Assembly: GCA_013820755.1 (NCBI GenBank) | Contig: JACDHZ010000010.1 | Location: 1 to 32,792, forward strand | Direction: 5' to 3' | Source: Chthoniobacterales bacterium | GTDB taxonomy: Bacteria > Verrucomicrobiota > Verrucomicrobiia > Chthoniobacterales > UBA10450 | DNA: 32,792 nt | In this document: in pieces, positions 2,316 to 25,083 of the stretch | Layout: every line of letters starts with the position of its first letter | How positions within the stretch are numbered: position 1 is the stretch's first letter | The notes under the pieces: generated by a model | The model's database searches: none | The model's input: the letters and a program-made list of their open reading frames with translations, nothing else | What the model was told of the DNA's origin: nothing | Translations under genes and position numbers: made by a program

Positions 2316-4022
2316 CTAATTCGCGTCGCCCACGGTGATTGAAATAACCTCCTCAGCAGATGTAATGCCGGCGAGAACCTTCCGCACTCCGTCTTCACGC
2401 AAGGTGCGCATGCCCAGCTCACGCGCTTTCATTCGCAGCATCAGCGTCGATTGCCGGTTGTTGATCATGTGCCGCACGTCGTCATCGATCACAAAAATCT
2501 CGAAGATACCCATCCGGCCGCGGTAACCGGTTTGCCGGCAGCGTTCGCAGCCGACAGGAACCATCACCTGCGCCTCACCGAGTTGAGACGCTTCGATGCG
2601 CAGCGCGCGCAGGTCTGTCTGACTCAGCTGTCCCGGTTTTTTGCAGTGCAGGCAGAGCCGCCTAACGAGACGTTGCGCCATGATCGCGCGAACAGAGGAA
2701 GCGACGAGGAATGGCTGCATGCCAATGTCAACCAGCCGGGCGACGGCGGAAGGTGCGTCATTCGTATGGAGCGTGCTGAACACGAGGTGGCCGGTGAGGC
2801 TCGCGTTTGTGGCAATCGCTGCAGTCTCGAGGTCACGAATCTCACCGATCATGATGATGTTAGGCGCCTGGCGGAGAATCGAGCGCAACGCCGTGGGGAA
2901 AGTCATCCCAATCTCCGCGTTCACTTGTACCTGATTGATACCGGTCATCTGGTACTCGACCGGCTCCTCGACGGTGATGATCTTTCGGTCAGGTTTGTTG
3001 ATGTAGTGCAAACAGGCGTAAAGCGTGCTCGTTTTGCCCGAGCCGGTCGGGCCGGTCACAAGCAAAATTCCATCGGGCAAACGCAGCAAACGCTCGAATG
3101 TTTCCTGATCGTCGCTCAGGAATCCAAGCTCAGGCAGGCCCAGAACCAGGCTGGATTTATCCAGCAGACGCATCACAACGCTTTCGCCGTGGTTCGTCGG
3201 GATTGTGGAAACGCGCAGATCCACAGGCTTCCGCAAAATCTTCACCTGAATGCGGCCGTCCTGCGGGAGCCGTTTTTCCGCGATGCTCATTGAACCGGTC
3301 ATGATTTTTAGCCGGCTCACTATGGCTGATTGCAAGCGCTTCGGCGGCGCCTGCATTTCCTGCAGCACGCCGTCGATGCGAAACCGCACCCTGAATTTCT
3401 TCTCAAGTGGCTCGAGATGAATGTCGCTTGCTCCGAGGCGATGAGCCTCGATCAGCAACATCGAGACGAGACGAATAATCGGTGCGTCGGTTTCATCGCC
3501 GCCGCTGAGATCATTTCCGTCGAGCGTTTCGATTCCGAGGTCCCGGAGATCGTCGCCGAGCCTCGCCGCCAGAACATCGGAAGCTTCATCAGCCGTGCCG
3601 TAATACTTGATCAGCGCTTCGCGAATCTTTTCCGGGCTGCTGCAAACGAGGTCAATCTCGCGTTGTAATAGAAAGCTAAGGCTGTCGATCGTGTCGATAT
3701 CGAGCGGGTCGCTTACTGCTACAGTGAGAATTCCGTCGCTAAGCCCTACCGGAATAACCTTGAACCGCCGCGCCTCTTCAGCACGGACCTGTTTGATAAT
3801 CTCCGGCGGAATCACGCGGGCAGAGAGATCGACCCAATCCATGTGCGCCTGCGCGGCGAGTGTCCGTGAAACGTCGACCTCAGCGACGCTTCCGTTGTGC
3901 ACGAGCACATCGACGACGCTTGTGCTGCCGTTCAAGCGCGACCGCGCGTCGGCGATCTGCGAGTCTGTGATCAGGCCTGCGTCTTCGAGGACGCTGAGCA
4001 CATAATCTTCGTTGCGTTGCAC
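2316..4022 (-). CDS. GspE/PilB family assembly ATPase (first of a tandem pair, altered RQDPD motif)
   Basis: A 568-residue paralogue of the adjacent ATPase with the same plan: MshEN-like N-terminal domain, ATPase core with Walker A GPTGSGKT at about 324-331, TVEEPVEY, Walker B IIMIGEIRDLETA at about 389-401, STLHTNDAPSA, and CxxC pairs (CLHC near 457-460, CERC further on) for zinc. The segment before Walker B reads LRQAPN where most GspE/PilB proteins have LRQDPD. I read gcg-cct-aac in the complementary DNA, so two acidic residues are lost. Everything else needed for ATP hydrolysis appears intact. The stop is 11 bases before the start of the second ATPase, and the start is 42 bases after the glmS stop. 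Two PilB-like motors in tandem could build a hetero-oligomer or serve two machines. Confidence 0.92.
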   Translation of the reverse strand: MQRNEDYVLSVLEDAGLITDSQIADARSRLNGSTSVVDVLVHNGSVAEVDVSRTLAAQAHMDWVDLSARVIPPEIIKQVRAEEARRFKVIPVGLSDGILTVAVSDPLDIDTIDSLSFLLQREIDLVCSSPEKIREALIKYYGTADEASDVLAARLGDDLRDLGIETLDGNDLSGGDETDAPIIRLVSMLLIEAHRLGASDIHLEPLEKKFRVRFRIDGVLQEMQAPPKRLQSAIVSRLKIMTGSMSIAEKRLPQDGRIQVKILRKPVDLRVSTIPTNHGESVVMRLLDKSSLVLGLPELGFLSDDQETFERLLRLPDGILLVTGPTGSGKTSTLYACLHYINKPDRKIITVEEPVEYQMTGINQVQVNAEIGMTFPTALRSILRQAPNIIMIGEIRDLETAAIATNASLTGHLVFSTLHTNDAPSAVARLVDIGMQPFLVASSVRAIMAQRLVRRLCLHCKKPGQLSQTDLRALRIEASQLGEAQVMVPVGCERCRQTGYRGRMGIFEIFVIDDDVRHMINNRQSTLMLRMKARELGMRTLREDGVRKVLAGITSAEEVISITVGDAN

Positions 4023-9169: not shown

Positions 9170-9631
9170 TTACGCTGCGCCAGCAAGCGCTGTTCGGCCG
9201 TCCACGGAATGGCTGCGCGACAGCGCATCACGGCGTGCCCGTTGCTGGCAGGTCGCGAGCACACGTGAGAGCACACAATACAACTGCTCGATCGGAAGAT
9301 TCTTGCTGACGTAACCGTTAGCTCCTGCGCGGAGCGCAGTGTGCATCCGCTCCTCGTCATAGCCAACGCCGGTAAACACTACGATTGGCAGCGCCGGGCT
9401 CATCTCGCGAATGAAAGAGATTAGGGAAGTGCCGTCTACTTTCGGCATGTTTAGGTCGACCACGACAACGTCGCACTCGTTGTGCTCGAGCCACGCTGCG
9501 GTGCGGAATCCTTGCGTGAGAGACGCGCATGTGTGTCCCTTTTGCTTGAGGTAGGCCACGAGGAATTTAGTGATTGCCGGGTCATCGTCTATGATGAGGA
9601 ACTCAGTGGCCGCTCGGGTGAGAAGTTTCAT
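9170..9631 (-). CDS. Single-domain response regulator
   Basis: A 153-residue stand-alone CheY-like receiver. All phosphorylation residues are present: the acidic triad D15-D17 (IIDDDP), phospho-acceptor D59 in VVVVDLNMPKVDG, T87 in VVFTG and K110 in GYVSK. No output domain is attached; about 30 residues after the domain are polar and probably disordered. It is last in a minus-strand run with the two histidine kinases, aldolase and lpxD, so it could receive phosphate from either kinase. However, a 143-base gap with its own candidate promoter separates it from lpxD, so it may be expressed independently. Confidence 0.9.
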   Translation of the reverse strand: MKLLTRAATEFLIIDDDPAITKFLVAYLKQKGHTCASLTQGFRTAAWLEHNECDVVVVDLNMPKVDGTSLISFIREMSPALPIVVFTGVGYDEERMHTALRAGANGYVSKNLPIEQLYCVLSRVLATCQQRARRDALSRSHSVDGRTALAGAA

Positions 9632-9774: not shown

Positions 9775-10797
9775 CTAGCGGGAGCTGAGCTTCTTTTCGA
9801 TCTCCCTCACCCGAGCGAAGAGCTGGCCGAGCCGATGCACCCACGCCAGCTGCTGTTTCGCTTCACGCAGCGGGACGGCGACCGTACCCCACCACGTGCC
9901 GCCGTCGGCGGGCAGGTCCTTCGAGACGCCTGTGCTCGCGGCGATGATGTTGCGGTCGCCAATCTCGACGTGCCCAGTCACCCCGACCTTGCCGCCCATC
10001 ATCACGTAATCACCGATGCGCGAACTTCCCGCGATGCCTGTTTGCGCTGCGATGATCGAGTGTTTGCCTATCACTACGTTGTGCGCGACCTGGACCAGAT
10101 TATCGATTTTCGCGCCTTCCTTTATCCAGGTGCGCCCGAAACGCGCGCGGTCGATCGTCGTGTTCGCCCCGATCTCGACATCATCGTCGATTTGCACAAT
10201 CCCAATCTGCGGCACTTTCTGCTGCCGGCCTTCGACGACTTCGAAGCCGAAACCGTCAGCGGCAATCACTGCGCCGCTGTGGATGATGACACGCGAACCG
10301 ATGCGCGTACGCTCGCGAATGGTGACGTGCGGGTAAATGACGCAACCCGCGCCGATGGTTGATTCGTGGCCGATATAACTGTTCGCGCCAATGAGCGTGT
10401 CGTCGCCGATAGTTGCGCCCGCCTCAATGACAGCCTTAGGCTGAATCGAAACTCGCGCGCCTAATGTTGCATCCGGTGAGATAAAGCTGCTCGGGTGAAC
10501 ACCCGGCGCAAAACGAATCGGCGGCGGTGCGAGCTTGAGCACCACCTGCTCGAACGCTTTCGTCGGGTTGGCGACGCGGACTTGTGCCGGCTCCATAGCC
10601 TCCGCGAAATCCGCGGGAACGAACACGGCCGAGGCACCGGTTTTTCGCAGCTGCAGCATGTACTTCGGATTTGCGAAGAAAGAAATGTCGCCGTGCGTCG
10701 CTTCGGGCAGCGGTGCGGCGCCAGTGATGAGAAGGTTCGCGTCGCCGTGCAACTCTCCGCGGCACAGCGTCGCGAGTTCTTGAAGAGTAAATGTCAC
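9775..10797 (-). CDS. lpxD: UDP-3-O-acylglucosamine N-acyltransferase
   Basis: Third enzyme of lipid A synthesis: transfers a 3-hydroxyacyl chain from ACP to the 2-amino group of UDP-3-O-acylglucosamine. The product has 340 residues, the normal length. An N-terminal uridine-binding domain (about 1-100, with FANPKY) is followed by a left-handed beta-helix of hexapeptide repeats from about 105 to 290. The catalytic histidine is H239 in NLVQVAHNVVIGKH, the same number as in E. coli LpxD. GFGFEVVEG and ANTTIDRARFG are also typical. The start is GTG at 10797. Its presence shows an LPS-containing outer membrane. It is not next to lpxA, lpxC or fabZ as in many bacteria, but follows fructose-bisphosphate aldolase by 54 bases. 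Confidence 0.96.
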   Translation of the reverse strand: MTFTLQELATLCRGELHGDANLLITGAAPLPEATHGDISFFANPKYMLQLRKTGASAVFVPADFAEAMEPAQVRVANPTKAFEQVVLKLAPPPIRFAPGVHPSSFISPDATLGARVSIQPKAVIEAGATIGDDTLIGANSYIGHESTIGAGCVIYPHVTIRERTRIGSRVIIHSGAVIAADGFGFEVVEGRQQKVPQIGIVQIDDDVEIGANTTIDRARFGRTWIKEGAKIDNLVQVAHNVVIGKHSIIAAQTGIAGSSRIGDYVMMGGKVGVTGHVEIGDRNIIAASTGVSKDLPADGGTWWGTVAVPLREAKQQLAWVHRLGQLFARVREIEKKLSSR

Positions 10798-10851: not shown

Positions 10852-11805
10852 CTACCCGCCGACGCTTGCTTGCACGGCGTCCAGCTGACCAGCCGAGCCG
10901 AGCTTCTCATTTTTGTGCGCGATGAAATCGGCGTAGGCTTGCATGAAGACTTTGCCCGGTGGGCGGAAGTCGAACTCCGCGGGTTTATCCCGGAAAAACT
11001 CGCGATGAACCCGCGTCCAAACCAGTCGTCCGTCGGTATCGATGTTCACTTTCGTAACGCCGAGCTTCGCGGCGGGAAGATATTCATTTTCATCTACGCC
11101 GCGGGCGCTTGGATCAAGCTTTCCGCCCGCAGCGTTAATCCGCTGAACCTCTTCGATCGGCACGCTGGAGCTTCCATGCATCACAATCGGCATTCCGGGA
11201 ACCTTCTGTGAGATCGCCTCGATCACGTCGAAGCGCAGCGACTGCTGACCTTTGAACTTGTAGGCTCCGTGGCTGGTGCCAATCGCTGCTGCAAGCGAAT
11301 CGCATCCCGAACGCTTCACGAATTCGACAGCTTCGTCAGGATTTGTGAGGCACGCGTGTCCTTCGTCCACTTTGATGTCCTCCTCAACACCGCCGAGCAT
11401 TCCGAGTTCCGCTTCCACGCTGACGCCCTTAGCATGAGCGCGATCAACAACGCGCTTCGTGATCGCGATGTTTTCGTCGAACGACTCGTGGCTCGCATCA
11501 ATCATCACCGAGCTGTAGAAGCCTGAGTCGATGCAGTCGTAACAAGTGGCCTCATCACCGTGATCGAGGTGCACCGCGAAGATCGCTTCGGGGAAGATCA
11601 CCTCGGCGGTCCGGATGATTGCTTCGAGCATCCGTTTATCGGTGTAACCGCGTGCGCCTTTCGACAGCTGGATGATGAATGGCGCCTTGCTCTGGATACA
11701 ACCGCGGAACAGACCCATGCTCTGTTCAAGGTTGTTGATGTTGTAGGCGCCAATCGCGAATTTCTTGTAAGCGACTTTATAGAGTTGGTCAGTGGTAACG
11801 ATCAT
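10852..11805 (-). CDS. fba: Class II fructose-bisphosphate aldolase
   Basis: Zinc-dependent aldolase of glycolysis and gluconeogenesis, interconverting fructose-1,6-bisphosphate with dihydroxyacetone phosphate and glyceraldehyde-3-phosphate. 317 residues. The active-site block HLDHGD has catalytic D81 and metal ligand H82. E131/E133 (VEAELG) follow, with further metal ligands H179 (GTSHGAYK) and H210 (VMHGSSSV). The phosphate-binding NIDTDGRLVWT lies near the C-terminus. It sits 89 bases after the second histidine kinase and 54 bases before lpxD, all on the minus strand. The gap to the kinase holds a 6-bp inverted repeat (11853-11873, GCGTTT/AAACGC) with no T-tract, so I do not call a terminator. 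Conserved motifs make the assignment secure. Confidence 0.95.
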   Translation of the reverse strand: MIVTTDQLYKVAYKKFAIGAYNINNLEQSMGLFRGCIQSKAPFIIQLSKGARGYTDKRMLEAIIRTAEVIFPEAIFAVHLDHGDEATCYDCIDSGFYSSVMIDASHESFDENIAITKRVVDRAHAKGVSVEAELGMLGGVEEDIKVDEGHACLTNPDEAVEFVKRSGCDSLAAAIGTSHGAYKFKGQQSLRFDVIEAISQKVPGMPIVMHGSSSVPIEEVQRINAAGGKLDPSARGVDENEYLPAAKLGVTKVNIDTDGRLVWTRVHREFFRDKPAEFDFRPPGKVFMQAYADFIAHKNEKLGSAGQLDAVQASVGG

Positions 11806-11894: not shown

Positions 11895-13895
11895 TCAGAA
11901 GCCAGTTGGGCTCGCCGGGAGCATCACACTGACAGCGGTGCCGTGCGGATTCGATTCAATATCGACACGCCCGTTGTGGTCGAACACCGTCCGCTTCACG
12001 ATGGGCAGACCCAAACCCATCCCCCGCGGCTTCGTCGTGCAGAAAGGAGAAAAGACTTTCTCCTTCATTTCCGGATCGATGCCTTTGCCGTTATCCTGGA
12101 TGGTAACGAGCACTCCGCTGGCGGTTTGTCCGTCGCGGATAGGCTTCGCAGCCAGCGATATGCGCGCCTTCGGCTGGCCCGTGGTAGCCTCCGCTGCATT
12201 CGCCACAAGGTGCGCAAACGCCTCGGTCAGCGCAGTCTCGTCGCCGAGCACCGGTGGCAGGTCACCAGGCAGATTTGTCTCGATCGGCGTGCCATTCGTC
12301 CCGAACCGGGCGCGTGCGATCTCAATCGCGTTGTTTACAGACGTTCGGAGATCAACCGGCTTCATCACCAACTCCGCGGGATGGGCAAAGTTGTTGATCT
12401 GTGTGATGATGCGATCCAGACGCTCCACTTCCTGCACGACGATCTCATTGAAGTCCTTGCGGAAATCAGGGTCGTCGAAACGTTCCGGTAGCAGCTGCGC
12501 AAAAGTCTTGATGGCGACGAGTGGATTCCGCACTTCGTGCGACATGCTCGCGGCGAGATCCGTCCAGAAGGCAGCGCGATCGACGAGATCCTGTTTCTGC
12601 CGCAGGCTCTCCTCTGCCGTAAGATCATGTATAACGGCGACAGCGCCCAGCGGCGTTTTCTGATCGAGCAGCCGGCGCGTCTCCACCGCCAGGGAGCGGC
12701 GCGTGTTCAGATCGACCCACTGCTGCGGCGGCAAGTTACCTTTAGCATCAAGGGTCTCACGCAGCAGCGCTGCCAACCGCCCGCCAGCAGCTTCAGCAGG
12801 ACGATTTAACACCTCCGCCGCTGAAAGGCCAAGAATCTGTTCTGCGGTGGGATTGAACCAGCGGATGATCGCCTCTTCGTCGGTCGCTACAATCCCAGGC
12901 GGGATAGATTTCAACAGAGTTTCAGCAAGAGTCTTTTGAAGCGTGATCTCCTCATTCAGCAGTGCATTCTCCAGCACGGTGGAGACGTGCTCCGCGAGGA
13001 TCATCAGGTTCTCCAGCTCGGGATAATCAAACCGCTGGCCGGTGACCCTGTGACCGAAGAAAAGCCATCCGAGAACCCGCCCGCGTGCATGCAGGGGCAC
13101 GATCACCTCTGCTCCGAAAGTATCGAGCGCTCGCCGCATCAGCGCACGTTGCGCCTGGTCCGACGCCTGCGGGAGCGTCGTGCGGCAGATCAGGTGAGCG
13201 TGCAGCTCAAACCAGCGAACCAGAGGGTCGCGTTCGCCATATTCGATTTCATAGGTCTCGGGCAGGCAGCGCAGCCCTGCGCGAAGCCGGTAGCGATCGC
13301 TTTGCCGGATACGCGAGAATATCCCGACCCGCGTGACGCTGGCAGCGTCCGCAACGCCCTCGACAACGCTCGCGAGCAGCGCTTCGACATTGTCAAAACG
13401 GCGGAAGACGCGAGGGAACCGCAGCAAAGGCAGCGCAGGTGAATAGCGGTCCGCTGTCATGTCGGCGCGTCGAGGTGCTTCGGGCGCAGGCATCAGCGTG
13501 GTTTGATCGCGCAGCTCGCGATTCTCCTGCAACAGCCGCAGGTGATCGAATGCACGGGACACGAGGCCTTGAAAACGGCGACGGTCGATTTGCAAATCTT
13601 CCGCAGCGTAGATGCCGGATTCTTCAGCTTCGCGCAACGGCTCGGACCGCGGGGTGCCGAGGGCCACGATCAGAACTTCCGGCCATTCGTGTTGGAGCTG
13701 CGCGATCAGGTCGCGCGCATCTTTTGCGCGCAAATCGAGCAGCAGCACGGATGGGCCCGACTGCTGCAGCACAGCGTCGAGGCGATCGAGTTCCGTCACG
13801 TGGCGCACCTGCGCGAGAATGCGCAGGAATGCTTTGATACGGCGGGCCAGGTCTGCCTCTTGTGTGTACAAGATGCATACCGCGGGAGGGCTCAT
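11895..13895 (-). CDS. Soluble sensor histidine kinase (pseudo-receiver, GAF, PAS, HisKA, HATPase)
   Basis: 666 residues without membrane segments. Residues 1-120 resemble a receiver: VLLLDLRA keeps an Asp near 55, but the N-terminal acidic cluster is replaced by CILYTQEAD and the conserved Lys is not evident, so it is probably a pseudo-receiver. A GAF-like domain spans about 165-325 (LGWLFFGHRVTG). A PAS domain follows (about 335-440, GIVATDEEAIIRWFNPTAEQILGL; recognised by its parts). HisKA has phospho-acceptor H453 in SMSHEVRNPL. HATPase shows NAAEA, DNGKGI and GMGLGLPIVK. Its start overlaps the stop of the upstream 7TM kinase by four bases (ATGA). The two share the string NPLV-IKTFAQLLPER around the His, so they are paralogues. 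The partner is unknown; the response regulator at 9170-9631 is a candidate. Confidence 0.9.
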   Translation of the reverse strand: MSPPAVCILYTQEADLARRIKAFLRILAQVRHVTELDRLDAVLQQSGPSVLLLDLRAKDARDLIAQLQHEWPEVLIVALGTPRSEPLREAEESGIYAAEDLQIDRRRFQGLVSRAFDHLRLLQENRELRDQTTLMPAPEAPRRADMTADRYSPALPLLRFPRVFRRFDNVEALLASVVEGVADAASVTRVGIFSRIRQSDRYRLRAGLRCLPETYEIEYGERDPLVRWFELHAHLICRTTLPQASDQAQRALMRRALDTFGAEVIVPLHARGRVLGWLFFGHRVTGQRFDYPELENLMILAEHVSTVLENALLNEEITLQKTLAETLLKSIPPGIVATDEEAIIRWFNPTAEQILGLSAAEVLNRPAEAAGGRLAALLRETLDAKGNLPPQQWVDLNTRRSLAVETRRLLDQKTPLGAVAVIHDLTAEESLRQKQDLVDRAAFWTDLAASMSHEVRNPLVAIKTFAQLLPERFDDPDFRKDFNEIVVQEVERLDRIITQINNFAHPAELVMKPVDLRTSVNNAIEIARARFGTNGTPIETNLPGDLPPVLGDETALTEAFAHLVANAAEATTGQPKARISLAAKPIRDGQTASGVLVTIQDNGKGIDPEMKEKVFSPFCTTKPRGMGLGLPIVKRTVFDHNGRVDIESNPHGTAVSVMLPASPTGF

Positions 13896-16414
13896 GCGGC
13901 GGCAACCTCCCGCTCGAAACGAACCAGCGGCAGCAGAATATGGAACGCCGTCCCTCTAGCCACCTGGCTTTCTACTTCGATCTGGCCGCCATGCTCCTGG
14001 ATGATGCCATGCACAACCGAAAGGCCGAGTCCGGTACCGTAGTCTTTCGTCGTGAAAAACGGATCGAACACGTGACCAATATCCTCCTCACGAATGCCGT
14101 CGCCGCTGTCGCGCACCGTGACGCGCAACACCTCGTCGGTATCGCCGTTCGTGCCGTTGATTGCAGTGACCCATTCCTCGGCCGAACGGATCTCCGTCGC
14201 TACGGTGAGCTCACCACCCCGCTTCATCGCATCCATCGCATTTAGGAAAAAGTTCAGGAATACCTGTTCAAGCTGGTCTGCATCCGCGCGGATGGTATCC
14301 ACATCGGCGTTCCACGAACGAGACAATTTGATGTCCTGCTGGTAAAGCCGATGCCCGACGAGCATCAGGGATTTCTCCAGAACGTCGTGCACGTGCATCG
14401 GCTTTAGGAGCGGCTTCGCAGGACGAGCAAACCGCAGCAGTTGGTTCACGAGCGAATCGATACGATCGATCTCGTGCCCGATGAGATTCGAGAAGGTCTC
14501 GCGGAAATCCGAGTCCTGGTACCGCTCCGGCAGCAGCTGTGCGAAGGTTTTAATAGAAACGAGCGGGTTTTTGATTTCATGCGCCATGCCAGCGGAAAGC
14601 GTGCCGAGGCTGGCGAGACGGTCGCTTCGCCGTATTTGCAATTCGAGGCGCTTCAACGCCGTGAGATCCGTCAGCACCATCAGTGCACCAAGCATTTCGC
14701 CGGCCTCGCCATGGAAGATCGAGCTGCTCGCACGCACGATAAGACTTCTCTCATCCGAGCGGAGAACAATTTCGCGGTGCTCTTCCAGTTTCCCTGACGC
14801 CAATGTATCGCGCAGCACCTGGCCCAAGGCCTCAGGTAGTTCAGCGACCGAGTGGTCGACGACGTCGTGCCACGGTAATTCCGTGATCTGCTCGGCTTCT
14901 TTGTTGAAAACGGTGATGCGGCCTTCTGTGTCGGCTGCGATCACGCCTGTCGTGAGGTTTTGCAGCAGCGTCTCATTGTAAATGCGCGCGTTCTGCACCT
15001 CGGTAAAGAGTTGCGCGTTCTCGATCGCGACCGCGAGCTGCCCGCATAATACTTGCAGAGCGCTCTGCTCAACCGTGCCGTAGATTCTCCCCGACCGGCG
15101 GCCGCCGAGCAGCATGATGCCGACAAGATGCTCGCGGGAGAAAATGGCCATCGCGACCCCAAGCTTCAGCTTGTGCATCTCGGACATCATTTCGTCGAGT
15201 TCGGGCGAGGCACGAACACGATGCAATTCCTCGAAGACGAGAGCCTCGGTTGGTTGAGTCTCGAGGTAGCGGACGACTGGATGGGTTCCGGGCAAATCGA
15301 GCGGCGTATCGTCCGTGTCGGTCAAGCGCTCGGGGTACTGCTGAACATACCCGCCCTTCTGCGACAGCAGGATCATAAGACGATCGGTATCGACCGCCTG
15401 CGCGATTGTGACGCCGAATTGATCGAGCAAATCCCGCAAGGTTGTGACGGAACGCAAGATGCCCGCGGCGTCTTTCATCGTCGCCCGAAAGTCGAGGTGA
15501 TGCGCACGGATGAAGAGACGCTCAGCAAGCCGGCGAGAAACCCCGCGCGCTGGAGCCATCGCGAACGCGATCACGACGGCGGCGAAGACATGCGCAATGC
15601 CGGAGCTGTTGTGCAGAGTCGGGCGCAGTGCCGTTGCGACCAGCCACCACACAAAAGCGTAAAGCGCCAGGAGGTAAGCGCCTAAAACCGCGTAGGACAA
15701 CAGCCGCCGGAGGAAAACGCCTACCTCCATCAGTTTACGAGTGGCGATGCCATATGCGACTACGACGCTAAAGAGAACGACGCGAAACGGCGCGAACCAG
15801 ATCAAGCGCGAAGGATCAACGTAGAAGCCAAGCACGTAAGCCAGGAGCAGAGACAGGCCGAGCGCAGCAAGTCCGCCGGTGAGGATAAATGCAAGTTCAG
15901 CGTGCTCGCTGCCGGTCGTCTCTCGCAGATCCCGCGATGCGGTAAAGATCAAGGAAATTATCGCAGCTATGAACAAGGCTGCGTAAATAAACACTGCAGG
16001 GCCATAGACCGGGAGAGGGGCGGATCCAGACTCCACTGGCAATCTCGCCTCTTTCAGGAACCAGCGCGTCTGACAAAGAATGACCGTGCCCCCTGTGAGA
16101 ACTAACCAGCTGCGGGAGTGCCGGAGTAATGCGTTCCAACTGATGTCGCGCAACCGCACCGACAGGCGCAACATGTTAAGGACTGCCAGATAGAGTGCCC
16201 CGGCTGCAGATGCTTCCCTGATGCCGATTTCCGCCATTGCCGCGTTTCTTGCCGTAAACGCGCAAAAGAGACTGCCAAGCCACGCCGCAATGGCGACCGA
16301 GAGCAGGAGAAAGCACTGGTTTACGCGCCGCCTCGGATTGGACTGAAAAACGGCAAAACCAAGCGCGACCTGTAAAGCCAGCGCAGTCAGCGTCGGGATG
16401 GAAGCGCTATTCAT
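13892..16414 (-). CDS. Membrane sensor histidine kinase (7TM-type N-terminus, GAF, PAS, HisKA, HATPase)
   Basis: 840 residues. The first 300 or so hold eight or nine hydrophobic segments, matching the 7TM-type input region of PrsK-like kinases. A GAF domain spans about 320-475 (MAIFSREHLVGIMLLGGRR). A PAS domain follows at about 485-590 (TTGVIAADTEGRITVFNKEAEQ in part), then HisKA with H612 in GMAHEIKNPL. The HATPase has NFFLNAMDAM, DSGDGI and GTGLGLSVVHG. Both ends overlap neighbours by four bases: its ATG lies in the stop of the ketosynthase-like gene and its TGA in the start of the soluble kinase. The three therefore form one coupled operon. PrsK kinases belong to exosortase/PEP-CTERM systems, but no exosortase gene is visible here, so that link is weak. 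The signal sensed is unknown. Confidence 0.9.
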   Translation of the reverse strand: MNSASIPTLTALALQVALGFAVFQSNPRRRVNQCFLLLSVAIAAWLGSLFCAFTARNAAMAEIGIREASAAGALYLAVLNMLRLSVRLRDISWNALLRHSRSWLVLTGGTVILCQTRWFLKEARLPVESGSAPLPVYGPAVFIYAALFIAAIISLIFTASRDLRETTGSEHAELAFILTGGLAALGLSLLLAYVLGFYVDPSRLIWFAPFRVVLFSVVVAYGIATRKLMEVGVFLRRLLSYAVLGAYLLALYAFVWWLVATALRPTLHNSSGIAHVFAAVVIAFAMAPARGVSRRLAERLFIRAHHLDFRATMKDAAGILRSVTTLRDLLDQFGVTIAQAVDTDRLMILLSQKGGYVQQYPERLTDTDDTPLDLPGTHPVVRYLETQPTEALVFEELHRVRASPELDEMMSEMHKLKLGVAMAIFSREHLVGIMLLGGRRSGRIYGTVEQSALQVLCGQLAVAIENAQLFTEVQNARIYNETLLQNLTTGVIAADTEGRITVFNKEAEQITELPWHDVVDHSVAELPEALGQVLRDTLASGKLEEHREIVLRSDERSLIVRASSSIFHGEAGEMLGALMVLTDLTALKRLELQIRRSDRLASLGTLSAGMAHEIKNPLVSIKTFAQLLPERYQDSDFRETFSNLIGHEIDRIDSLVNQLLRFARPAKPLLKPMHVHDVLEKSLMLVGHRLYQQDIKLSRSWNADVDTIRADADQLEQVFLNFFLNAMDAMKRGGELTVATEIRSAEEWVTAINGTNGDTDEVLRVTVRDSGDGIREEDIGHVFDPFFTTKDYGTGLGLSVVHGIIQEHGGQIEVESQVARGTAFHILLPLVRFEREVAAA

Positions 16415-17655
16415 TCAGGTCGAACCCGCTCGACCACAAGCGTGCTGGCACTCCCCCCTAAGCCACGCACGTTGATTAGCGCGCAGTCGACGACGCCGCG
16501 CCGCGCGTGGTTGGGAACAATGTCGAGGTCACATGCCGGATCAGCCGTCTCATAGTTTGCCGTCGGAGAAATCAAGTTGTCGCGCATCGTAAGGGCGCAG
16601 GCGATCAATTGAAAAGGGCCGCCCGCCGCCAACGGATTCCCCGTCACACCTTTGATAGAACTTACAGGGATCGACCACGCATGCTTCCCAAACACACGTT
16701 TGATTATTTTTGTCTCCATGGCATCAAGGAACGGGTGGCCGGGGCCGTAAGCCGAAATGTAATCCACGTGTCCAGGACAACGGCTGGCGTTCGCGAGCGC
16801 GAGTTGCATAGAATGCTCCAGCCCTGAAGCCGGTTGTGCTGGATCGAAATCCCGCTGGCTTGCATACCCGCTAATCTCCAAATACACGCGTGCACCCCGC
16901 GCTTCGGCGCGTTCCAGATTCTCGATGACGAAGACACCAGCACCTTCTGAGATCACGCCAGAGTCTCTCGTTAGGTCGAACGGCCGGCTTGCCTTTTCTG
17001 GCTCGGCGTTGCGTAGGGAGCTTAGGCCAGTCGCGGTAAAGCTCGCCATAGCTAGAGGCGTAATTGGCGCATCAGCTCCGCCGGCGATTGCAATCTCCGC
17101 TTCGCCCGACCGAATCATTTCCGCGGCAATCGCAATCGCGTCTAGCCCGGACGGACACGCCGAGGAGATCGTCGCCGCGTTCGCGCATGAGCCAAGTTTA
17201 TCAGCGATCAAATTGGCAGCCGCTTGCGGCTTCGACGCACCAAGCGCCGTTGGCGACACTCGATCGGGGCTTCGCTCCGTCACGTCGTGGAACACGCGCT
17301 CGATGACATCCAATGCACTCGTGCTGACGCCGATCACAACTGGCGTCGGACTTGGGAGCTCAAGATTTTCTAGATTGAGGTCCGCGTCTTTCAGAGCCAT
17401 CATCGTGGCTGCGTACGCGAGTTGCGTATGGCGCGCCATGCGGCGGGGCTTCATTTCTGGATCAATGTAGTCGACTGGATCGAATCCTTTCACCTCTCCG
17501 GCGATCCGACTCCTGAATGCGCTTGCGTCAAAAAGCGTAATAGGTCCAACACCGCTGCGTCCTTGACATAGGGACTCCCAGAACGCCGTCAGCCCGGTTC
17601 CGTTGGGAGCAAGAACACCGATCCCCGTGACGACTACACGATTTCTTTTGATCAT
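16411..17655 (-). CDS. Beta-ketoacyl-ACP synthase II (FabF)-like protein lacking both catalytic His
   Basis: A 414-residue thiolase-fold protein aligning with FabF over its whole length (VVVTGIGVLAPNG at the start, GLGGSASTLVVERV at the end). The nucleophile is present: C167 in SSACPSG. However, the two His of the Cys-His-His triad are replaced. Where FabF has NAHGTST this has SAYGPGH (Y303), and where FabF has KSMTGH this has KGVTGN (K335 kept, N340 in place of His). The gatekeeper Phe is Leu399. Decarboxylative condensation should therefore be lost or much reduced, while acyl loading on Cys may remain. This differs from chain-length factors, which lose the Cys. It overlaps the 7TM kinase gene by four bases. 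No ACP, acyltransferase or ketoreductase is adjacent. Transacylase or acyl-sensing functions are inferences. Confidence 0.85.
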   Translation of the reverse strand: MIKRNRVVVTGIGVLAPNGTGLTAFWESLCQGRSGVGPITLFDASAFRSRIAGEVKGFDPVDYIDPEMKPRRMARHTQLAYAATMMALKDADLNLENLELPSPTPVVIGVSTSALDVIERVFHDVTERSPDRVSPTALGASKPQAAANLIADKLGSCANAATISSACPSGLDAIAIAAEMIRSGEAEIAIAGGADAPITPLAMASFTATGLSSLRNAEPEKASRPFDLTRDSGVISEGAGVFVIENLERAEARGARVYLEISGYASQRDFDPAQPASGLEHSMQLALANASRCPGHVDYISAYGPGHPFLDAMETKIIKRVFGKHAWSIPVSSIKGVTGNPLAAGGPFQLIACALTMRDNLISPTANYETADPACDLDIVPNHARRGVVDCALINVRGLGGSASTLVVERVRPE

Positions 17656-17827: not shown

Positions 17828-17869
17828 GGTCCACGCGGCACGTGCTTAGCTGTAAGTGGTTCGCCAGAT

Positions 17870-19124: not shown

Positions 19125-21557
19125 GTGTCCGGACCATATCAAGTCGCGCCGATTTTCCTGATTCGGATGGCCGGTGTGGCGTTCGAGCCGCTCGATCGAC
19201 TTGCTACGCCCCACACTGTTCTGCTCGCGCGTGAGTTGATCCAGGGGAAGCGTCTCCGAGCAGGCGCAAGGGAGGACGCAGAAAAGTTTTTCCATTCGCG
19301 CGAGCGCCTGCTCTCAGTTGCGGCCTACCAGGCCCTACGCACAGCCGTTCGGCTCGAAAAGCCGCCGGCAGCAGTCGAAGGCGATTTGCCGAGAGTGTTC
19401 ACGAACTACGCGACGGCTTCTCATCGTGTCGCAGAACTCGAAGCGGAACTCGACGGCGCACTCGCACTCGAAGTCGCGGCTACGCGCGCTTCCCTTATCG
19501 AGAGCAGCGCTCTGCTGCAGCGCTATCTCGTCTTCGGCGCTGATAGCGTGCGTCGACTCCTGACAAAGCAACTAGAGGAATACCCTGCTGATCTCTCGAC
19601 AATGCGCCCACGCAATAATCCTGCGCGAAAAACCGAGCAGACGTTGTTGCTCTTCCTGCAGCGGGTCGCGGCGAAGAACGACACCTTCAGTGAATTCGGA
19701 CCCGGAGGTTGGGGGCGCAGTGACGCGCAGACTTCGGCAATTCTGATGGATCCTGAGGATGCGGTCGCTCGGCGGGAAGTTTTTCTCGAGCGGTGGACGG
19801 CGCATTCCACTGCTGCCGCGATAAACGCAGACGAGGAAGTGTTCGGCGAACTAATGCCGCATCTGGATCCGAATGGCTCGCTCAACGGAACAACGTTCAT
19901 TTCCAAAAACACCGGAGAGGTGACTGCACTTAGTCTGCACGAATTGGAACTCGCAAAACGCTGCGATGGGAAGACGCCGGTTCACGCGCTGACGGACGAG
20001 GTGTCGACTTTGCGGAAACTGGTAGCTGATGGGGTTCTGCGCTGCGCGATCGAAGTGCCGGCACTTGAGCCAAACGCTTTCGACAGACTGCGGGAAGATA
20101 TCGCATCGTGGCGAGGTGGCACCGCGCGAGATAAATGGCTGCCGGTTGCGGACGAAATTGCGGAGCTTCCGCGCCGTTTCGACACCACCACCGACAGCAA
20201 CGAACGACAACAGCTTTTATCGCAGGCATACACATCTCTCCGAAGTGCTGGTGCCGCAGAAAGAACAGGGCACCGGTTTCTGTACGCGGCTGTGAACCCG
20301 ATTGGCGAAGAATGCTTCCGTGAGTGCAACTTCGCGATCAGCGAGAGGCTGATCGGCGAAGTTCCCGCTGAAGCCGCGCTGTGGATCGATTTCTGGCGCG
20401 ATACGTATGCCTTCATTGCCAGCCGGGTAGCCGCTGGACTGAGGCAGATCATGGAACAAGCGGCGCCCGGCGCGACGTCGGTGCCGCTCCCCGCGTTTCT
20501 GCATATGTGCGAAACGGCGCGGCTGCCGCTTACCGGGCCGGGTTTGATTGGACTTGCCGTACTGGCATTTCAGGAAGTGAAAGCAGCGTTTCGCGAACAG
20601 TTGACGCCGCACCTTGCGCTAGACGAGTACGAACTCACGGCCGCGGATTGCCACGTCATCCGCAACAAATTTCAATACGCGAAGTTCGACGAATATACGT
20701 TTCCGTCCGCCGATCTTCAGATCGCCGCCACTTCCACGGACGCGGTACAGCGCGGCGAGTACCAGTGGATCATCGGCGAACTGCATCCGCCTGCCGCGCT
20801 GCTCCATCATGGATTTTACTGGAGCTGTCCTGACAAAGCCGCGCTGAACCGTGCCTTCGCCGCGACCGTCTTCGGCAAAGCCACGGCGCATTTCGGCTTC
20901 TTCGCTGCGGATTTCGCGTCGCACACGACGATCCGTGTTTTCGACGCGATGCCCGAACTGACGAACTTCGTAGCGCCGCAGCGCGGGCATCCCAGCTGGC
21001 GAACCACCCGACCAGCCGACGCAGAAGTGTATGTGGACCCGGAATCCGGCGACGTATGCATTCGCGCGATCAAGTCGCACGAGTTCCTCGGTTCGTTCGC
21101 GCGGGCATGGCTCATCCCTCTTGGCTTTCATCCGTTCCAGTTCGGCGTCTCACCACACACGCCTCGGTTGCGTTGCGGAAAGGTGATCGTGCAACGTCGC
21201 TCATGGGCGGTGACACTGGAGGAGCTCGCACCAGGCGACTTTAACGGCCTTTCGCGTCACCTCGTTCTGACTGTTGAACAACTGCGAGCCGCTCGTGGGC
21301 TGCCGCGGTATGTATACATTCGCCCGACTGAAACGGCGCTCCGTCGCAGCGGCGCGGAAGGCCGCGACAAAGACACAAAGCCGATCTTCATCGACCTCGA
21401 GAGCTACCTCTTTCTCGAGATATTCCACCGCTGGCTCGCGAAAGCGGGGGAGCTCGAAGTGACTGAGATGCTACCCGATCCGGACCATCTCTGCTGGCGC
21501 GAAGCGACGGGGCGACGCACTTTCGAGCTGCGCACATTGATCGTACCGCGCGCATGA
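19125..21557 (+). CDS. LanB-like lantibiotic dehydratase family protein, glutamylation domain only
   Basis: 810 residues of the lantibiotic dehydratase N-terminal family. Full class I LanB enzymes glutamylate Ser/Thr of a precursor using glutamyl-tRNA and eliminate the glutamate with a separate C-terminal SpaB_C domain. Family marks here are the opening FLIRMAGVAFEPLDRL (11-26), LLLFLQRVAAKNDTFSEFGP (174-193), RGHPSW near 660, PRLRCGKVIVQRR (from 680) and KPIFIDLESYLFLE (about 752-765). The chain ends about 45 residues later, so the elimination domain is missing, as in split LanBs and in peptide aminoacyl-tRNA ligases (PEARLs). The start is GTG at 19125, five codons before the conserved region. 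The stop overlaps parA by four bases. No precursor, LanC, protease or transporter gene is nearby. The substrate is unknown. Confidence 0.85.
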   Translation: MSGPYQVAPIFLIRMAGVAFEPLDRLATPHTVLLARELIQGKRLRAGAREDAEKFFHSRERLLSVAAYQALRTAVRLEKPPAAVEGDLPRVFTNYATASHRVAELEAELDGALALEVAATRASLIESSALLQRYLVFGADSVRRLLTKQLEEYPADLSTMRPRNNPARKTEQTLLLFLQRVAAKNDTFSEFGPGGWGRSDAQTSAILMDPEDAVARREVFLERWTAHSTAAAINADEEVFGELMPHLDPNGSLNGTTFISKNTGEVTALSLHELELAKRCDGKTPVHALTDEVSTLRKLVADGVLRCAIEVPALEPNAFDRLREDIASWRGGTARDKWLPVADEIAELPRRFDTTTDSNERQQLLSQAYTSLRSAGAAERTGHRFLYAAVNPIGEECFRECNFAISERLIGEVPAEAALWIDFWRDTYAFIASRVAAGLRQIMEQAAPGATSVPLPAFLHMCETARLPLTGPGLIGLAVLAFQEVKAAFREQLTPHLALDEYELTAADCHVIRNKFQYAKFDEYTFPSADLQIAATSTDAVQRGEYQWIIGELHPPAALLHHGFYWSCPDKAALNRAFAATVFGKATAHFGFFAADFASHTTIRVFDAMPELTNFVAPQRGHPSWRTTRPADAEVYVDPESGDVCIRAIKSHEFLGSFARAWLIPLGFHPFQFGVSPHTPRLRCGKVIVQRRSWAVTLEELAPGDFNGLSRHLVLTVEQLRAARGLPRYVYIRPTETALRRSGAEGRDKDTKPIFIDLESYLFLEIFHRWLAKAGELEVTEMLPDPDHLCWREATGRRTFELRTLIVPRA

Positions 21558-23556: not shown

Positions 23557-25083
23557 ATGGAACGGGTGTTCGGGATCGAGACGGAGTACGGGATTACGAT
23601 CGACGGCGCGGAGTCCATCGACGTCGTTGCGGAGTCGATCGAGCTGGTGCGCAGCTACATGGGCCACGGCGCGCACATGAAATGGGATTACGAACTCGAA
23701 GATCCGCATCAGGACGCGCGTGGATTTCGCGCGAGCGAGCTGCTGCAGGACACGGATGAGTCGGCTTACTTCGAGATCGATAAGAGCCGGCCGCTGCGGT
23801 TTGAGGAGATCAAAACCGACCTCGTGCTGGCGAACGGCGCCCGATTTTATAACGATCACGCGCACCCCGAATATTCCACGCCTGAGTGCACAACCCTCCG
23901 GCAGATTATCGCTCACGATCGCGCAGGGGAGCGCATCGTCGCGGAATGCGCGCGCCGCCGAAACCTGGAACTCCCCGACGGGCAGGAAGTGCGGTTGTAC
24001 AAGAACAACACCGATTTCCTGGGGCACAGCTACGGCTGCCACGATAACTACCTGATGCGAAGAGACGTGTCGTGGGATTGCATTGTCGGCGGCATGCTGC
24101 CGTTCCTCGTTACGCGACAGATTTTCGCGGGAGCAGGGAAGCTCGGGACCGAAGCGGAAAGCGCAGCGGGTAAGCCTGGCATCTATCAGATTTCGCAACG
24201 CGCCGATTTCTTCAGCGTGCTCGTGAGCATCGATACGATGAACCGCAGGCCGCTCGTGAACACACGTGACGAGCCCCACGCCACTTCGGCAAAGTATCGG
24301 CGATTCCACGTGATCGTCGGCGACGCAAACATGAGCGAGTGGACGACCGCATTAAAGGTCGGGACCACTGCGCTCGTGCTGGAATTAATCGAGCGCGGCA
24401 ACGTGCCGGACCTCGAGCTCGCGGAGCCAGTGCAGGCGATCAAAACAGTTAGTCGTGACCAGGATTACAGTTGGATTTTCGAGCTGCGCGACGGTCGAAA
24501 GATTTCCGCAGTCGACGTCCAGCGGCTTTATCTCCAGGCGGCGCAGGACATGGAATATCCTCCAGAAGGAGATACGCGATGGCTTCTGAACGAATGGGAA
24601 ACTGTCCTGAACGACCTGGAGCGTGACGTCGAGTCAACGCGCGATCGGGTCGACTGGGTGGCAAAAAAGTTTTTGCTGGCCGCCATGCAGGAGGAGGAGA
24701 AGCTCGCATGGAGTGATCCCTGGCTGCAGGCGATTGATCTCGAATATCATAACGTCGACCGCGAAGCGGGATTGTTCCATGCGCTGGAGCGTCAGGGTGC
24801 GATGCGCCAGGTTGTTAGTGCTGACGACATCGCCGCGGCAATTTTCTGCCCACCCGAAACGACGCGCGCGTATTTCCGGGGGCGCTCGGTCGCGAAGTAT
24901 GCGCCTGCAGTCGAGTCAGTGCAATGGGACGAGGTCGTGTTCGCTGACAACGGGAGGACGCAACGCGTTTCTCTGCCGGAAGTGTCCGCCGATGCGCGGT
25001 TGGAGCGACTGAACGCGCTATGTCGCGAGGAACCCGCGATCGGTGAGTTCCTTACAGCGCTGGAGGAGATCGACAGCGCCTGA
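23557..25083 (+). CDS. dop: Depupylase/deamidase of the Pup pathway (Dop, PafA2 family)
   Basis: Member of the glutamine-synthetase-fold Dop/PafA family, which deamidates the C-terminal Gln of Pup and removes Pup from proteins. 508 residues, matching Dop. The N-terminal FGIETEYG supplies metal-binding E8 and E10. Then KWDYELEDP, a 30-residue polar insert at the Dop-loop position, and NDHAHPEYSTPEC with D100 as the likely nucleophile. ISQRADF, NTRDEPHA, YRRFHVIVGDANMSE and TRAYFRGR follow. WDYE and DHAHPEYS favour Dop over PafA. Neighbours are carbonic anhydrase (25 bases upstream) and convergent glgP. No Pup/UBact, pafA, ARC/Mpa or proteasome gene is in the window. Dop outside Actinobacteria is known with UBact-type systems, including Verrucomicrobia, so a distant locus is expected. 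Confidence 0.93.
   Translation: MERVFGIETEYGITIDGAESIDVVAESIELVRSYMGHGAHMKWDYELEDPHQDARGFRASELLQDTDESAYFEIDKSRPLRFEEIKTDLVLANGARFYNDHAHPEYSTPECTTLRQIIAHDRAGERIVAECARRRNLELPDGQEVRLYKNNTDFLGHSYGCHDNYLMRRDVSWDCIVGGMLPFLVTRQIFAGAGKLGTEAESAAGKPGIYQISQRADFFSVLVSIDTMNRRPLVNTRDEPHATSAKYRRFHVIVGDANMSEWTTALKVGTTALVLELIERGNVPDLELAEPVQAIKTVSRDQDYSWIFELRDGRKISAVDVQRLYLQAAQDMEYPPEGDTRWLLNEWETVLNDLERDVESTRDRVDWVAKKFLLAAMQEEEKLAWSDPWLQAIDLEYHNVDREAGLFHALERQGAMRQVVSADDIAAAIFCPPETTRAYFRGRSVAKYAPAVESVQWDEVVFADNGRTQRVSLPEVSADARLERLNALCREEPAIGEFLTALEEIDSA

Follow-up and report, generated by a model that had tools for sequence, protein, structure and literature searches.

Organization of the locus

The window, by which we mean the whole stretch of 32,792 nt that was analysed, carries on its minus strand an open reading frame with an ATG start that encodes a FabF-like ketosynthase (KS) of 414 aa. 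The genes for two histidine kinases, HK1 and HK2, follow KS on the same strand and form an operon with it, and a receiver-histidine kinase gene (RRHK) is divergent from KS. The features are listed in Table 1. An earlier sequence-only reading of this DNA gave neither the strand nor the kinase-operon context.

Table 1. Positions of the KS gene, its key codons and the associated features in the window
Feature	Position	Strand	Evidence or remark
KS, FabF-like, with C167, Y303, K335, N340 and L399	16411..17655	-	Pfam, residue alignment, predicted fold
C167 codon TGT (E. coli C163)	17155..17157	-	Cys in every readable member except one
Y303 codon TAC (E. coli H303)	16747..16749	-	
H307 codon CAC (E. 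coli T307)	16735..16737	-	Non-conserved; mostly Asp among relatives
K335 codon AAA	16651..16653	-	
N340 codon AAT (E. coli H340)	16636..16638	-	
L399 codon TTA (E. coli F400)	16459..16461	-	
HK1, 840 aa: about 7 TM helices, GAF, PAS, HisKA, HATPase	13892..16414	-	Start overlaps KS stop by 4 nt
HK2, 666 aa, soluble: GAF, PAS, HisKA, HATPase	11895..13895	-	4-nt overlap with HK1
Stand-alone receiver domain protein, 153 aa, no DNA-binding domain	9170..9631	-	Syntenic in much of the window's family
RRHK, divergent receiver-histidine kinase protein, 384 aa	17870..19024	+	In conserved layout
Sigma-54-like promoter site CGGCACGTGCTTAGCT, imperfect -12 element, toward RRHK	17836..17851	+	Predicted; position conserved in the window's family

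The stand-alone receiver protein is a probable, though unproven, partner of the kinase module. A fold search with the sensor part of HK1 recovered GAF domains and no known lipid sensor. Genes for an LpxD-like acyltransferase and a class II aldolase (9775-10797 and 10852-11805, both on the minus strand) lie close after HK2, here and in much of the window's family, and may share its transcript. An 810-aa protein is encoded at 19125-21557 (plus strand). It matches the lantibiotic dehydratase N-terminal family over a short stretch only (residues 670-736); its gene adjoins RRHK in most genomes of the family and is not part of the wider module. Further away there is a Pup ligase family protein (23557-25083, plus strand; 5.8e-166). 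Pup ligase is a marker of the pupylation-proteasome system, and the case in the window lies outside the Actinomycetota. At 616-2304 and 2316-4022 (minus strand) lie tandem genes for two MshEN-domain type II/IV secretion ATPases.

Active site of the ketosynthase

KS matches the Pfam families ketoacyl-synt (7e-46) and Ketoacyl-synt_C (4e-20). Among proteins of solved structure, those nearest in sequence are FabFs (B. subtilis 4ls5, 3.8e-87), to which KS is approximately 38% identical, and the predicted structure (mean pLDDT 89.8) superposes on the solved FabFs with a TM-score of approximately 0.94, which corresponds to a KAS II fold. In alignments with these proteins C167 lies opposite the active Cys, Y303 opposite the His of HGTST and N340 opposite the His of TGH. 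The sequence-only reading had named C167, Y303, K335, N340 and L399 and had proposed that the Cys is retained and both catalytic His are replaced. Translation of the open reading frame and the FabF alignments confirm the five residues and with them the pattern. The KAS III-like Cys-His-Asn set is absent from the window protein because of Tyr303.

KS scores below the cut-offs of the curated FabF models (TIGR03150, 359.8 bits against 493.75; NF005589, 342.2 bits against 387). Its residues, which do not include the Cys-His-Lys-His set, these cut-offs and the gene context together rule out an ordinary FabF. Chain-length factors share with KS a ketosynthase fold in which catalytic residues are lost; however, they lose the Cys and are paired with an active KS. 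In the window the Cys is kept and there is no partner KS adjacent, which rules out this class too. Three further ketosynthases are encoded in the window's genome (L002, L003 and L004), each with an intact Cys-His-Lys-His set. Normal condensing enzymes are thus also present, and the window KS is therefore free for a different role.

The sequence-only reading had also pointed to a nearby histidine, H307, and its position four residues past Y303 is right. Most relatives, and four members of the window's family, have Asp at position 307, so H307 is no conserved substitute and was rejected as a rescue histidine of general occurrence.

Conservation within the family

About 20 further genomes from the family of the window (f1, which includes L047, a locus from a Chthoniobacterales MAG) encode orthologues that are 59-81% identical to KS. 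The residues in question are common to these independent genomes, so a sequence error at the KS codons is ruled out. The Cys-Tyr-Lys-Asn set occurs in 17 f1 sequences, counting the window. Cys167, Lys335, Asp311 and Glu314 are retained throughout f1, and N340 is kept in all f1 copies that cover that position. Replacement sites are constrained (pN approximately 0.17-0.20); a dN/dS ratio is not given because synonymous sites are saturated (pS approximately 0.75-0.82). This constraint rules out a pseudogene. Several of the genomes in the set are fragmented metagenome assemblies.

Distribution of the KS-HK1-HK2 module

When 388 genomes of the phylum were searched with a profile, approximately 40 further KS members came up, most of which score higher than the FabF background. 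A quick tree, some of whose branches are long, separates the KS clade from FabF (SH-aLRT support 99%). In every locus with enough flank HK1 lies downstream of KS, nearly always with HK2 after it, and short overlaps (often 4 bp) are usual. The layout of the window, with KS, HK1 and HK2 on one strand and RRHK divergent, is found in every f1 locus that is flanked by enough sequence, and also in G036, which belongs to another family. In Pontiellaceae B1224 the KS-HK1-HK2 order is kept and RRHK is more distant. Some Pontiellaceae-like genomes (L101, L115) encode a FAD-linked oxidase-like protein of approximately 540 aa after RRHK.

The reverse search with HK1 gave a nearly identical set of genomes. 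There are two genomes, G154 and G304, in which HK1 has no adjoining KS, and the remaining exceptions that were checked are contig ends or divergent copies. In the G304 locus (L154), HK1, HK2 and the divergent genes for FadL and RRHK are present, and KS alone appears to have been lost from between them. KS is thus not indispensable, as these two genomes keep HK1 without it. Conservation in the module cluster does not extend to any other biosynthetic gene. In a plasmid collection the top KS matches were generic FabF-like proteins and there were no matches to HK1. This architecture and its conservation make it very probable that KS is a dedicated component of a signalling module.

Variation of the active site across the KS clade

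At positions 163/303/335/340 (E. coli numbering) the commonest set among the readable members is C-H-K-N (32 members), followed by C-Y-K-N (17), C-H-K-C (six), C-N-R-H (four) and C-H-K-S (two). The sets C-H-K-I, C-W-K-I, C-N-K-I and E-H-K-D are rare, with one or few members each, and one C-H-K-I entry is a frame-broken fragment. The FabF set, C-H-K-H, is found in no readable module member. Position 303 can thus be Y, N or W, position 335 can be R, and position 340 can, beyond Asn, be C, S, I or H. FabF residues T305 and T307, which face the pantetheine, are replaced in nearly all members. Of the four catalytic positions, that of the Cys varies least, and only one divergent member has lost it. 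This KS (L155 3-965, genome G419) adjoins HK1 and is truncated by the contig; it has Glu at the position of the catalytic Cys and a Cys two residues before. A sub-clade of four loci (L117, L120, L131 and L134 in genomes G069, G066, G117 and G260) has Asn303 and Arg335, keeps His340 and has FadL.

Judging from these residue sets, the loss of H340 is widespread and typical of the phylum-wide KS clade. The loss of H303 is a later change within f1. His and Tyr interchange at this position in f1, since G012 has His303 and is nested among Tyr members on the tree.

FadL, the NtrC-type regulator and sigma-54-like sites

Outside f1 there is usually a FadL-family outer-membrane gene (Pfam PF03349) between KS and RRHK, directed away from KS. 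A gene for an NtrC-type regulator often follows HK2 in these loci, with receiver, sigma-54-interaction and Fis-type domains or with receiver and Fis-type domains by Pfam. Sites resembling sigma-54 promoters with a score of at least 14 are directed toward fadL in 18 of 36 loci, compared with 1.05 expected, and toward KS in three loci. In f1, sites with an imperfect -12 element are directed toward RRHK in 12 of 16 loci (0.43 expected); all of these sites are predictions, and related loci are not independent. The expected numbers were obtained from other parts of these loci, and all sites were scored by a simple scheme made for this analysis. RpoN is encoded in the window's genome.

There is no match to FadL (PF03349) in the whole of the window's genome, and FadL is missing in 22 of 24 f1 genomes. 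The losses of FadL and of H303 coincide through one or two events, which is no evidence of cause. The circuit of the relatives is not wholly transferable to the window, because FadL is absent there and the linked receiver has no DNA-binding domain.

Possible role of KS

Taken together, the data suggest that KS reports fatty-acyl groups to a signalling system, or makes a fatty signal for it, rather than serving membrane-lipid synthesis. The reading that we tentatively favour is that KS may be an acyl-accepting, non-elongating accessory protein of a lipid-responsive two-component module. The architecture of the module can be read directly from the DNA, whereas sensing by KS, including the state that is sensed, is what we infer. 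The sequence-only reading had suggested that such a protein might bind acyl groups without condensing them. This is compatible with all of the findings, since the Cys is the most conserved of the four catalytic residues and changes are tolerated at both His, at the Lys and at T305/T307; the one divergent member with Glu in place of the Cys argues against an acyl acceptor.

In FabF both histidines serve malonyl decarboxylation and condensation. If KS accepts acyl groups, an acyl group would be passed from acyl-ACP or acyl-CoA to Cys167 by thioester transfer, and the resulting acyl-enzyme would not be turned over by elongation because both of these histidines are replaced. KS in its acylated or free form would then contact HK1 and set its kinase activity, and the output of HK1 would reach the predicted sigma-54 promoters, at fadL in most lineages and at the RRHK gene in f1. 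A precedent comes from Xylella, where RpfF without catalytic activity continues to support signalling with partners of the RpfC type (PMC4504480). The strictest form of this proposal, a covalent acyl sensor of KS fold whose Cys loading is read directly by the histidine kinase that controls, in most lineages, a sigma-54-dependent lipid-uptake channel, is possible but rather doubtful.

The main rival of an acyl acceptor is a signal synthase, in which a KAS III-like Cys-His-Asn site would make a hydrophobic ketone, lactone or acyl signal for the kinase, with FadL aiding its uptake in a layout like that of RpfF/RpfC/RpfG; in f1, where Tyr303 is present, the synthase would be altered or inactive. 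We regard this as somewhat unlikely, although several observations speak for it. The Cys-His-Asn triad is functional in other condensing enzymes, namely the KAS III priming enzymes and the substrate-cyclising TAS1 KS domain, so that the C-H-K-N members, which have the commonest set, may be catalytic. Additionally, RpfF and RpfC are a synthase-kinase pair that bind each other (PMC4504480), and long-chain AHL signals enter Sinorhizobium through FadL. However, His303, Lys335 and Asn340 each differ among module members, which is unexpected for one conserved chemistry, the pantetheine-facing threonines are replaced, and biosynthetic genes other than KS are not conserved in the cluster.

The absence of FadL from most of f1 and the replacement of H303 in 17 sequences, together with the two genomes elsewhere that have HK1 alone, could instead mean that in f1, where FadL and then the second of the two His were lost, KS is a decaying remnant that is disappearing, or a mere structural scaffold for the kinase. 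This is improbable given the strong purifying selection, the intact frames and the retention of Cys167, Lys335, Asp311 and Glu314 across f1; a scaffold needs no Cys. The same four residues, the FabF fold throughout and the LpxD-like acyltransferase gene downstream in f1 would fit an active condensing enzyme of unusual specificity that is merely an operon-mate of the kinases, for example one making a modified fatty acid under kinase control. We think this very unlikely, because both decarboxylation histidines are replaced in the window protein, H307 is non-conserved and the neighbours across the phylum are signalling genes, not biosynthesis genes.

Comparison with known systems

KS resembles FabF/KAS II (TIGR03150) in fold and length and in having the Cys, Lys335, Asp311 and Glu314, but both His, T305, T307 and the Phe gate are replaced and the gene sits in a kinase operon. 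It is like the TAS1 KS domain and KAS III in having Asn for the second His, a feature that most of the KS clade shows; in contrast to these the window KS is also without the first His and is a stand-alone protein of KAS II fold. KS0 domains lose the His of HGTGT and keep the Cys, and in the window SAYGPGH replaces AHGTST. KS0 is, however, a domain of polyketide synthase assembly lines, whereas the window KS is encoded by a stand-alone gene.

Genes for TodX/FadL channels are found beside two-component genes in toluene catabolism. The FadL-type gene of the relatives is likewise beside kinases and divergent from KS, but the window's genome has no such gene. TodX is a FadL-type channel (PMC7728783), and channels of this type carry fatty acids, long-chain AHLs or aromatics; in Sinorhizobium FadL imports long-chain AHL signals. 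The ligand of the relatives' channel may thus be aromatic or otherwise hydrophobic. The RpfF-RpfC-RpfG (DSF) system also has an acyl-handling protein of enzyme fold encoded beside a membrane histidine kinase and a regulator (PMC4504480), but RpfF is a crotonase and KS has a KAS II fold, there are two kinases in the KS module, and its relatives have the sigma-54 and FadL linkage.

We class the KS module among two-component systems that employ an accessory protein to handle a ligand. The known routes of fatty-acid sensing in bacteria run through transcription factors, kinases that respond to the membrane, and quorum sensing linked to a crotonase, and we know of no described two-component system with a ketosynthase as its sensing subunit. 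Our searches of the open-access literature found no paper that describes such a link between a ketosynthase and a histidine kinase. The parts are each known and the combination appears to be undescribed. If the proposal is correct, a partner of ketosynthase fold that is tied to a histidine-kinase operon throughout a phylum would link transcription to acyl-ACP status, or to a new lipid signal, in a new manner. The natural series of active sites in the clade (C-H-K-N, C-Y-K-N, C-N-R-H and C-W-K-I) allows the catalytic groups needed by signalling to be tested.
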